This document shows, piece after piece, positions 27,658 to 47,477 of a stretch of DNA of 58,063 bases. Made by a program: the position numbers and the translations under genes. Each line of letters starts with the position of its first letter. The stretch's first letter is position 1. Origin of the DNA: Candidatus Nitrosopolaris wilkensis (GTDB lineage: Archaea > Thermoproteota > Nitrososphaeria > Nitrososphaerales > Nitrososphaeraceae). Below the pieces are notes generated by a model that saw only the letters and a list, made by a program, of their open reading frames with translations, made no database searches and was not told the origin of the DNA. Location of the stretch: NCBI GenBank assembly GCA_003176995.1, contig QHBN01000128.1:1-58063 (forward strand), read 5' to 3'.

Positions 27658-28353
27658 TTACCTGTTTGGTTGGATAATTTCGAAGGAACCATCATTTTTT
27701 GCCTTGTAGTATATGTTTGCCTTGGTAAAGAATCCTATCTCTAACACTCCAGGAATGCTCTTTAATTCGATCTCTTTGTCCCGAACGTTTCCAATTGAGT
27801 TGAACGAAGTATCAAGGACTATGTTTCCATTTTCGGTGACGTATGGATATCCCTTGTCTATCGTTCGTAGCTTTGGGCTTCCTCCAATTTCTTTTAACCT
27901 CTTCAACAAAAAGGAGCGAGCAAACTTGTGAATTTCTATCGGAACCGGTTGCGTCAACCGCTTGACAAATTTGGTATCGTCTGCTAGAATAACTACTTTA
28001 TTCGCTGCTGAAATTAACACTTTCTCCCTAAGTAACGCGCCACCGCCACCTTTTATCATATTAAAATCAGAATCGATCTGATCCGCTCCATCGAAGACCA
28101 CATCGATGTCGACAAAGCTACCTTCGTCTGCAATTTTGAGCCCCACTTTTTCAGCTTCGATTTTTATTTGAAGAGATGTTGTCACGAACTCAACTGACCT
28201 CTTGTATGGTAAATTCGCTAATTCCCTCACAAGAATTGTCATAGTACTTCCGCTGCCTAAACCGACGACCTGGTTCGCTGTTACAAATCGCTTCACCGCA
28301 TCTTTTGCACTGTCAATAAGTGCACTCTTTATGAGCGAGGGCGCAGATGACAA
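27658..28353 (-). CDS. rpiA: Ribose-5-phosphate isomerase A
   Basis: A 231-residue RpiA interconverting ribose-5-P and ribulose-5-P. Motifs: VVGLGSGSTMTILV (phosphate loop), FDGADQID (substrate Asp), KGGGGALLREK with the catalytic Glu, and VPIEIHKFA. The length is standard. The start appears to be TTG at 28353 (MSSAPSLIKS); no ATG lies near the N-terminus. In archaea lacking the oxidative pentose phosphate branch, RpiA supplies ribose for nucleotides. It lies about 100 nt downstream of the coiled-coil protein gene on the same strand. Confidence 0.95.
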   Translation of the reverse strand: MSSAPSLIKSALIDSAKDAVKRFVTANQVVGLGSGSTMTILVRELANLPYKRSVEFVTTSLQIKIEAEKVGLKIADEGSFVDIDVVFDGADQIDSDFNMIKGGGGALLREKVLISAANKVVILADDTKFVKRLTQPVPIEIHKFARSFLLKRLKEIGGSPKLRTIDKGYPYVTENGNIVLDTSFNSIGNVRDKEIELKSIPGVLEIGFFTKANIYYKAKNDGSFEIIQPNR

Positions 28354-28455
28354 CTTCTAGAGCTGAGAGATGGCCACGTTAATATTCGTTTTAGGTACCG
28401 ATTATGACTGAATAATCCACATGGAGAAGAACTTTATGTCGGCGCTTCATAGTAA

Positions 28456-31880: not shown

Positions 31881-32142
31881 ATTCTTACCCAGAGATACAC
31901 ATCACTAGATATTGGCTATACCAATTATCTGGGTTCTTGCAGGGGATGACAAATCTCTCCGGAACATGGGTACACCTAGTATGATTGAAAGAATGGTTGG
32001 GAATAGGCAGAAGCTTCCTTCCTAATTTCGGATTCGCAGATTGCTTTCATTCTGCAGCTTATCGTTCTCATTCCGTTGCGCTTATCGTCACTGCAAGGTA
32101 AGTCCCTTGGCCAAGCGGTACTCTAGTAAACAGCTATATGGG

Positions 32143-32290
32143 TGCGGGGGGTGGGATTCGAACCCACGAATTCCTAAGAAACAGGGTTCTAGGAACCAGT
32201 CACTAATTCATCCACCTGGCTCATTCTAAGCCTCGCACATCTCTAATCGAGAGAAGACCTGCGCCGTTGGCCAGGCTTGGCAACCCCCGC
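32143..32290 (-). tRNA. tRNA-Leu (UAG inferred) with a 63-nt intron
   Basis: The acceptor strands GCGGGGG (5' end at 32290) and CCCCCGC plus discriminator A (32143) pair perfectly across 148 nt. D-arm GCC-AAGCCTGGCCAAC-GGC, a class II variable arm TTTC-TTA-GGAA-TTC, and T-arm GTGGG-TTCGAAT-CCCAC are clear. Removing 63 nt (about 32192-32254) gives CAGGT-CTTAGAA-CCCTG, a Leu(UAG) anticodon arm with one U-C mismatch, and an 85-nt mature tRNA. That puts the intron after position 33 or 34, not the canonical 37/38. Exact splice points are inferred. Confidence 0.8.
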
Positions 32291-32409
32291 ATACTCAACC
32301 CCCACATTGAGCAATTTATCTATTATTCTACTATGCTATGATGTTGCGGCTTTGCTCATGCCGTTCAGCCTTCATATACACATAGTCAGCGGGCCGCAAA
32401 GCTAGATTC

Positions 32410-38218: not shown

Positions 38219-38644
38219 TCAAAGGTCTAGCAAAAAGCGAATAGTCACCTCTTTGCAATCTTGCTTGATTTCCATCTCATGATATGTTATCGCTTTAATC
38301 TCTATTTTGTAATGGTGCTTCTCTAAGTCGATATGTTCTCCCTTTGCGACTGCGTTGATCGAATACCAATCCTCACATTCAGATATGATAACTTTTGAAT
38401 CTGAAACCACGATATTGTCTATTAGCATTATTAGCATGATCTTCTCTAGCCAGTTGTAAAGCAGGCTCTTAAGGTCATGTCCCTCGGCGTAGATCCCGAC
38501 TTCCATATCAGGAATGACTTCAGATAATTCGAACATCGTATTGACTAGGCCCAGGGCAGAATTTGCAAAAGCATCTTCCAGTGTATTCCCATACGCTTCA
38601 ACGATAACGTCAGTCATGTGATCTAAGTAGCGAAAGCCTGTCAT
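38219..38644 (-). CDS. Archease
   Basis: About 141 residues of archease, the small calcium-binding protein that activates the RNA ligase RtcB in tRNA splicing. GFRYLDHMTDVIVEAYG at the N-terminus holds the metal-binding Asp/His cluster; LLYNWLEKIMLIMLID is the central helix; EIKAITYHEMEIKQ and RFLLDL close the protein as in the family. ATG at 38644 is preferred to TTG at 38653 because it places TGFRYLDH at the start. It is relevant because two tRNA genes in this window carry introns. Confidence 0.92.
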   Translation of the reverse strand: MTGFRYLDHMTDVIVEAYGNTLEDAFANSALGLVNTMFELSEVIPDMEVGIYAEGHDLKSLLYNWLEKIMLIMLIDNIVVSDSKVIISECEDWYSINAVAKGEHIDLEKHHYKIEIKAITYHEMEIKQDCKEVTIRFLLDL

Positions 38645-38716
38645 ATTGCCCAATTTTGCCTTATATCCTTATAATTGATCGCAAAATCTAAATGCCCACC
38701 CCGAATTTTCTTGAGT

Positions 38717-46259: not shown

Positions 46260-46353
46260 TAGCCCGGCCCAGATTCGAACTGGGGTCAAAGGCTCCAAAG
46301 GCCTCTATGCTTGGCCACTACAATCGGCAGAACTATCAGTCCTCTACCGGGCT
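46260..46353 (-). tRNA. tRNA-Gln (UUG) with a 21-nt intron in the D-stem
   Basis: The acceptor AGCCCGG (5' end 46353) pairs with CCGGGCT, discriminator A at 46260. Anticodon arm GAGGC-CTTTGGA-GCCTT gives UUG; T-arm CCCAG-TTCGAAT-CTGGG. The D region is too long: after AGCCCGGTAG come 21 extra nt (about 46323-46343, able to form hairpin AGGACT-GAT-AGTTCT), then TGTAGTGGCCAAGCAT. Removing them restores GTGT in the D-stem and a 73-nt tRNA. Introns at D-arm positions are unusual. Boundaries are inferred. Confidence 0.8.
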
Positions 46354-46370
46354 TCCGGGCGTATTTTTCC

Positions 46371-47477
46371 CTATAGATTACCATCTTTAGAATGTTGCGT
46401 GCTTATGTTCAGATACGAGAGCATTTTGTCTAAGGGATCTTCCATTTTGTCGAAAATGCGTGCCGCCAGTCTTTTCTGTTTTTTCTTATACTTCTCATCC
46501 TTTAGTATCCTGTTGGTCAATCTTACTAGTTCGATCGAATTTGATGCCCTCTTCACCAGCCCTGAAGACACGAGATATTTCTCTACATAAAATCGAATTG
46601 GTGAGATAGAAATCGTAGGCGTTCCAATAAGCGAGGCCTCTGAAGTCATCGTTCCTCCTGCCCCAATGAATACGTCTGATGAAGCTATCAGAGGAATTCC
46701 GTCGACAACGTTTCTGAGTATGAAGGCCCTTGCTTCATACCTCTCCATTAACTCCCGTATTTGTTCTTCATATCTACATAGAATAACAATATTGATTGAA
46801 TTGTGTAAGTTATTTACTAGGGCATCCACCATAGAAATGCGGTTTTCTAACATCTTGTCTGCAATGTATGATGCCTTCGTTTCTTCGAGTCTAATCAGAA
46901 CAATTTTTTTCCCGGGGTCAAGGTTCAATTCTCGTAAGCATGCAGGGGGTACAGATGACGATGGCGACGGATCCCGCTTGAGCCATACAACAGGATCCAG
47001 AGCTCTGTACTGTGTTATCTTTGTCTTTGAAATACCGAACGGAAGCCACGCAGAAATGGGGATTACCCATGGACTGAAAAGATGATAGGTGAGTGGGATA
47101 GTGAGCTTCGAGACCGCTTCTGCATGTGGAGAATCGTTAAATCCAATGTGTCTAATTCCAAGTCCATATGCAACCCGTGATGCTTCTGGAGATGAGAATG
47201 TGATCGCGAAATCAGGTTCAAACTTATTTATCAAACTGGCGAGTTCAAAAATCCTAGATGCACTTTCTCGCAGCTTTTGGTATCTTTCTGCGCCGCCATG
47301 TCTGCCAACAATTTTGAGTTTGAGGTTTTTGACGGTGGCTAGTTCTACGGCCTCTCTATAATGTCTAGACGTACAGAGTAACTCGTGATCGGATTCACGA
47401 AGCAAACTTACTGCGGGACCAAAAAACATCACTTGCTTTGGCGTCAAGATGTCGAACCAAATTCTCAAGGATAACAA
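46371..47477 (-). CDS. DUF354 family protein (glycosyltransferase-like fold)
   Basis: About 365 residues of DUF354, related to the GT-B fold of UDP-GlcNAc 2-epimerase and lipid-A-disaccharide synthase-like proteins. RIWFDILTPKQVMFFGPAV is the family N-terminus; FIGAGGTMTSEASLIGTPTISI is the nucleotide-sugar-binding loop of the second Rossmann half. No ATG is near: TTG at 47477 or TTG at 47468 (giving MRIWFDILTPKQ) is the start, the latter matching homologues better. Divergent from the sugar dehydrogenase gene, so likely part of surface-glycan synthesis. Confidence 0.82.
   Translation of the reverse strand: MLSLRIWFDILTPKQVMFFGPAVSLLRESDHELLCTSRHYREAVELATVKNLKLKIVGRHGGAERYQKLRESASRIFELASLINKFEPDFAITFSSPEASRVAYGLGIRHIGFNDSPHAEAVSKLTIPLTYHLFSPWVIPISAWLPFGISKTKITQYRALDPVVWLKRDPSPSSSVPPACLRELNLDPGKKIVLIRLEETKASYIADKMLENRISMVDALVNNLHNSINIVILCRYEEQIRELMERYEARAFILRNVVDGIPLIASSDVFIGAGGTMTSEASLIGTPTISISPIRFYVEKYLVSSGLVKRASNSIELVRLTNRILKDEKYKKKQKRLAARIFDKMEDPLDKMLSYLNISTQHSKDGNL

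Follow-up and report, generated by a model that had tools for sequence, protein, structure and literature searches.

Known interrupted tRNAs and the tRNA-Gln(UUG) locus

The relaxed-BHB noncanonical introns of archaea, described in Thermoproteales and Thaumarchaeota (PMC8450103), resemble the tRNA-Gln intron reported here in being short, in lying outside position 37/38, in having a 4-bp central helix and 3-nt bulges, in their association with a two-subunit endonuclease, and in that some genes carry several introns. tRNAscan-SE 2.0 counted 107 noncanonical introns in Thaumarchaeota and includes a dedicated model for them (PMC8450103). The tRNA-Gln gene differs from this class in that its central helix uses acceptor-stem nucleotides and in having a leader complementary to the 3′ acceptor strand. 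Introns in the D arm are also described in Caldiarchaeum subterraneum and in the tRNA-Glu genes of Sulfolobus tokodaii and Methanopyrus (PMC3293823, PMC4307357, PMC3695527). Unlike the tRNA-Gln intron, these concern, as far as described, other tRNAs and other positions, and the accessible parts of those sources do not mention a leader element. In the split tRNAs of Nanoarchaeum and Crenarchaeota (PMC3218864, PMC4033280), as proposed here, a leader outside the mature tRNA pairs to build a splice-competent precursor. However, those leaders act in trans, pairing at the junction, whereas the tRNA-Gln leader would bind the 3′ acceptor strand in cis, at a distance from the junction. A search of the open literature on tRNA introns of Nitrosopumilus and Nitrososphaera and on acceptor-pairing leaders returned nothing specific; an earlier description may exist in other literature. 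The intron class is already catalogued, and the leader element is the new part, not described before as far as we found.

The tRNA-Gln(UUG) gene lies at 46353-46260 on the minus strand of the window, that is, the whole 58,063-nt stretch of Candidatus Nitrosopolaris wilkensis DNA that was analyzed. Its features and one neighboring gene are as follows:

46385..46396 (minus strand): TATA-like box AACATTCTAAAG, a predicted promoter based on a consensus match; conserved in the family, ~25-28 nt upstream of the leader element
46354..46360 (minus strand): 5′ leader element GCCCGGA, adjoining exon 1; GCCCGG (46360-46355) is pairable with CCGGGC of the 3′ acceptor strand
46344..46353 (minus strand): exon 1, AGCCCGGTAG, nt 1-10
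46349-46346 (minus strand): exon 1 nt 5-8, CGGU, central splicing helix with the intron; helix paired in 135/136 genes
46323..46343 (minus strand): intron, AGGACTGATAGTTCTGCCGAT, 21 nt, between nt 10 and 11; in relatives, the position is constant but the sequence varies
46328-46325 (minus strand): intron GCCG, pairs with CGGU of exon 1, with an inner hairpin between
46260..46322 (minus strand): exon 2, 63 nt, nt 11-73, anticodon TTG, 3′ end CCGGGCTA; 97-100% identical across the family
46267-46261 (minus strand): 3′ acceptor strand CCGGGCT, within exon 2
46260 (minus strand): discriminator A, last nt of exon 2
38219..38653 (minus strand): archease gene (PF01951, E = 1.8e-38), context only

Direct reading agreed with the initial annotation that 21 nt are inserted after base 10 (46343-46323, minus strand). 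Excision yields a 73-nt tRNA in which the acceptor, D, anticodon, and T stems are all complete, supporting its claim of a restored D stem; a BHB-type intron at 10/11 is likewise supported. The archease gene that it placed in the window was confirmed by the match listed above; in other organisms, archease partners the tRNA ligase RtcB. The leader element at 46354-46360, a more informative feature, lies beyond the gene as initially annotated. ARAGORN missed the gene, and the Rfam match covered model positions 9-63 only, at 30.1 bits versus a gathering score of 29, both in line with an interrupted gene. The exons lie in order within 94 nt, which is not the arrangement of a split or permuted tRNA. 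A second intact tRNA-Gln(UUG) gene, named initially as evidence that would overturn the reading, was sought and none was found in the genome (3.97 Mb, 97% complete). The nearest relative within the genome was the tRNA-Gln(CUG) gene of contig C32.

Distribution of the intron

Orthologues, the comparison originally suggested, were recovered as strong tRNA-Gln(UUG) matches in 34 of the 36 other family genomes searched, and the alignment always broke near the same junction. The two genomes without a strong match, G004 and G012, are draft assemblies. Exon 2 was 97-100% identical among the 34 matches; the insert varied in sequence, with a length of ~16-35 nt in the recovered relatives. Every recovered UUG gene of the host family carried the 10/11 intron, as did most of the family's tRNA-Gln(CUG) genes. 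This recurrence rules out chance and confirms that the tRNA-Gln(UUG) intron is real. Among the matches listed, the closest intron was that of L165, from an uncultured Nitrososphaeraceae. The host is a Nitrososphaeraceae-type thaumarchaeon, a soil-type ammonia oxidizer, and those named contigs whose genes are nearly identical belong to Nitrososphaeraceae. Outside the family, the intron was seen in many Nitrososphaeria and Bathyarchaeota and in a few contigs of DPANN. When genome contigs were scanned for the pattern, at least 117 stretches were returned, their records being labelled as Nitrososphaeria, Bathyarchaeota, Brockarchaeota, Aenigmatarchaeota, and Woesearchaeota. In the presumed Nitrosopumilaceae family, 27 of 121 genomes had the intron, and the gene was intronless in many others. 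Based on its family-wide and cross-lineage distribution, the 10/11 intron is old and ordinary for its clade. The initial description of a D-arm intron as unusual therefore holds against archaea at large but not within the host family, where the intron is standard, or in related classes, where it is common. As to the claim that such introns are known mainly from some Thermoproteota, the host belongs to Nitrososphaeria, itself part of Thermoproteota in GTDB, and noncanonical introns of Thaumarchaeota had already been catalogued (PMC8450103).

Several of the matches listed (L129, L133, L137, L147, and L169), labelled as Woesearchaeota, Aenigmatarchaeota, or unclassified archaeon, have, besides the same 10/11 intron, the acceptor AGCCCCG and additional insertions. 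The intron in these records may reflect ancient inheritance, transfer, or misbinning. Also among the matches listed, L164 (a 4.7-Mb chromosome record labelled Deltaproteobacteria) and L122 (labelled Marinimicrobia) hold this archaeal tRNA-Gln; bacteria-labelled scan matches, including these, are probably misassembled or misbinned.

Splice motif and leader element

The central helix, formed by exon nt 5-8 with the four nucleotides that stand before the last two of the intron, is paired in 135 of 136 distinct intron genes. Its variants contain wobble pairs and, at position 6, a compensatory switch from G-C to C-G. Nearly all 136 genes have the splice sites RG^A and AN^U, with 3-nt bulges whose predicted cut follows the second nucleotide; in the tRNA-Gln(UUG) gene at 46353-46260, the first intron A is also pairable with U, leaving a 2-nt bulge. 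The outer helix of a strict hBHBh′ motif (at least 2 bp by the 3′ bulge) was absent: in UUG genes only C4-G12 could form, and CUG genes have no outer pair (TCTAG). The motif is therefore relaxed rather than a strict BHB. The genome contains two PF01974 splicing-endonuclease genes, the number expected if the enzyme has two subunits, as reported for Thaumarchaeota (PMC4090602). Both the acceptor stem and the splice helix demand nt 5-7. Since this helix draws on nucleotides of the acceptor stem, only one of the two structures, the normal acceptor stem or the splicing motif, can form at a time.

A leader element (helix of at least 6 bp and score of at least 16, after an 80% similarity filter) was present in 64 of 65 UUG and 15 of 16 CUG intron genes, as compared with 2 of 22 UUG and 0 of 9 CUG intronless genes; isoacceptors were assigned by motif in these filtered counts, which overstate independence even after filtering because the genes are related. 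The exceptions among intron genes were L230 and L302, with 5 bp only, and L133, which was weak; a matching leader also occurred in two or three intronless genes. The Woesearchaeota leaders (L133 and L147) are unconvincing. The element lies between -7 and -25, and its pairing partner is the 3′ strand in all lineages, with some helices also pairing the discriminator. Leader substitutions retain pairing via G-U, and the leader tracks the acceptor where AGCCCCG replaces AGCCCGG. In the CUG genes the leader is a distinct one, UAGCUCG, whose pairing includes a G-U wobble as well as the discriminator. A G-C to C-G switch at position 6/67 is matched by changes in the intron partner and leader partner, a four-way covariation; since the leader was located by best pairing, this table is biased towards pairing, and the shuffles and intronless controls are the stronger tests. 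Three genomes of a single genus (G016, G028, and G033) have neither intron nor leader in the CUG gene but retain both in the UUG gene. Taken together, the comparative evidence from these sequences argues strongly for a leader element.

Intronless tRNA-Gln genes of the Nitrosopumilaceae-type family (L258, L260, and L263-L265) have GCTCG at about -12, possibly a leader relic with 5 bp left.

Other identities for the element were considered and rejected. A hairpin with exon 1, through the self-complementary CCGG, cannot form in AGCCCCG-type genes or with the CUG leader UAGCUCG, yet these pair with the 3′ strand. As a true exon 1, the element lacks U8-R9-G10. A promoter element is at odds with the TATA-like box located 25-28 nt further upstream and with intronless genes mostly having no leader. 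A general tRNA feature is excluded by the 30 other tRNAs of the genome, used as a control, of which three scored p<0.05 for a leader mimic, near chance.

The TATA-like box, where clear, stood 25-28 nt from the leader element in most genes; a minority of the calls put it elsewhere, and the motif, trained on one family, is weak in distant lineages. As this spacing matches the usual archaeal box-to-start distance, the transcript probably starts at, or next to, the leader element.

With their own leader, 100 of 135 genes favored the fold containing the leader and splice helices over the acceptor fold (mean difference -1.9 kcal/mol). The splicing fold won in 2 of 135 genes without the leader (mean difference +5.5), and shuffled leaders gave a mean difference of +3.0. 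For the tRNA-Gln(UUG) gene at 46353-46260, the two folds were computed to be equal (-39.1 each) and the unconstrained minimum was a third fold. The energies are therefore supportive rather than decisive, and, given this third fold, minimum-free-energy folding was not relied on by itself.

Proposed processing and alternative readings

We consider it likely that this tRNA-Gln(UUG) locus is single-copy and functional, that its BHB-type intron at 10/11 is spliced by proteins, and that its leader acts as a surrogate 5′ strand of the acceptor. The anatomy, conservation, co-occurrence and co-loss, covariation, and computed energies described above are the basis of this reading; from these we infer cleavage, ligation, strand exchange, and their order. 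In the precursor, GCCG of the intron would pair with CGGU of exon 1 (nt 5-8), presenting a 5′ bulge A9 G10 ^ A and a 3′ bulge A U ^ U11, both to be cut by the splicing endonuclease. The leader, GCCCGGA, would hold the 3′ acceptor strand while exon 1 sits in the splicing helix. After excision and ligation, exon 1 would displace the leader and form the true acceptor stem, and RNase P would then trim the leader, such that splicing precedes 5′ trimming. From sequence, then, we propose a strand-exchange leader that would free exon 1 for splicing and delay 5′-end maturation. It also seems reasonably probable that the arrangement is an ancient one, a cis-acting strand-exchange leader forcing intron removal before 5′ maturation in both tRNA-Gln isoacceptors across Nitrososphaeria, Bathyarchaeia, and possibly DPANN.

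The likeness between leader and acceptor could instead be a by-product, arising by tandem duplication at insertion or from a start-site preference, in which case this would be an ordinary noncanonical BHB intron whose leader has no processing role. Indeed, the leader at 46354-46360 and the acceptor strand next to it come close to a tandem repeat (GCCCGGA-AGCCCGG), and, as far as the accessible reports go, other archaeal D-arm introns are spliced without such a leader. A by-product is nevertheless unlikely to vary in spacing from -7 to -25, to preserve pairing through G-U substitutions, and to follow the acceptor change from AGCCCGG to AGCCCCG; moreover, the CUG genes solve the pairing differently, and the element is gone where the intron is absent. 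Some of the same observations bear on a non-splicing role for the leader helix, such as an acceptor-like helix for 3′ processing by tRNase Z or protection of the 3′ strand in the unspliced precursor. The helix would stack by the T stem in an acceptor-stem-like manner, and the 3′ strand is paired in all lineages, but some helices include the discriminator, unlike a normal tRNase Z substrate, and the energies fit the freeing of exon 1. We regard such a role as improbable. That the gene is a degenerate tRNA retaining its insert, as its weak tRNA-model score might suggest, is very hard to reconcile with its being the sole tRNA-Gln(UUG) of the genome, with an exon 2 identical in many genera, and with a splice motif conserved with compensation.

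The order of processing measured in Methanopyrus is a different one: tRNA ends are trimmed before intron removal (PMC3695527). This is the reverse of the splicing-before-5′-trimming predicted for tRNA-Gln and counts against the mechanism; the mechanism, if true, predicts an order opposite to that of Methanopyrus. It would also account for the tolerance of an intron so near the acceptor stem, and annotators would gain a signature by which to recognize acceptor-proximal introns. The 5′ leaders of tRNAs are usually treated as disposable; this one appears to serve as a functional part of the RNA, settling the conflict between splice motif and acceptor stem.

Other tRNA genes of the genome also appear to be interrupted. 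The D arm looks interrupted in the Arg-CCU, Asp, and Glu tRNAs (L031, L034, and L035), with no leader acceptor mimic evident by eye. In the window, 32139-32291 on the minus strand is a probable tRNA-Leu(UAG) with several introns (acceptor GCGGGGG/CCCCCGC, loop CTTAGAA); Rfam sees its T arm only and ARAGORN calls it a tRNA-Ser with an intron. Finally, the tRNA-Gln(CUG) gene (L036; G000:C32, ~28307-28448) apparently has three introns, at 10/11, ~21/22, and 37/38, and its leader UAGCUCG and 10/11 intron recur in most family members.
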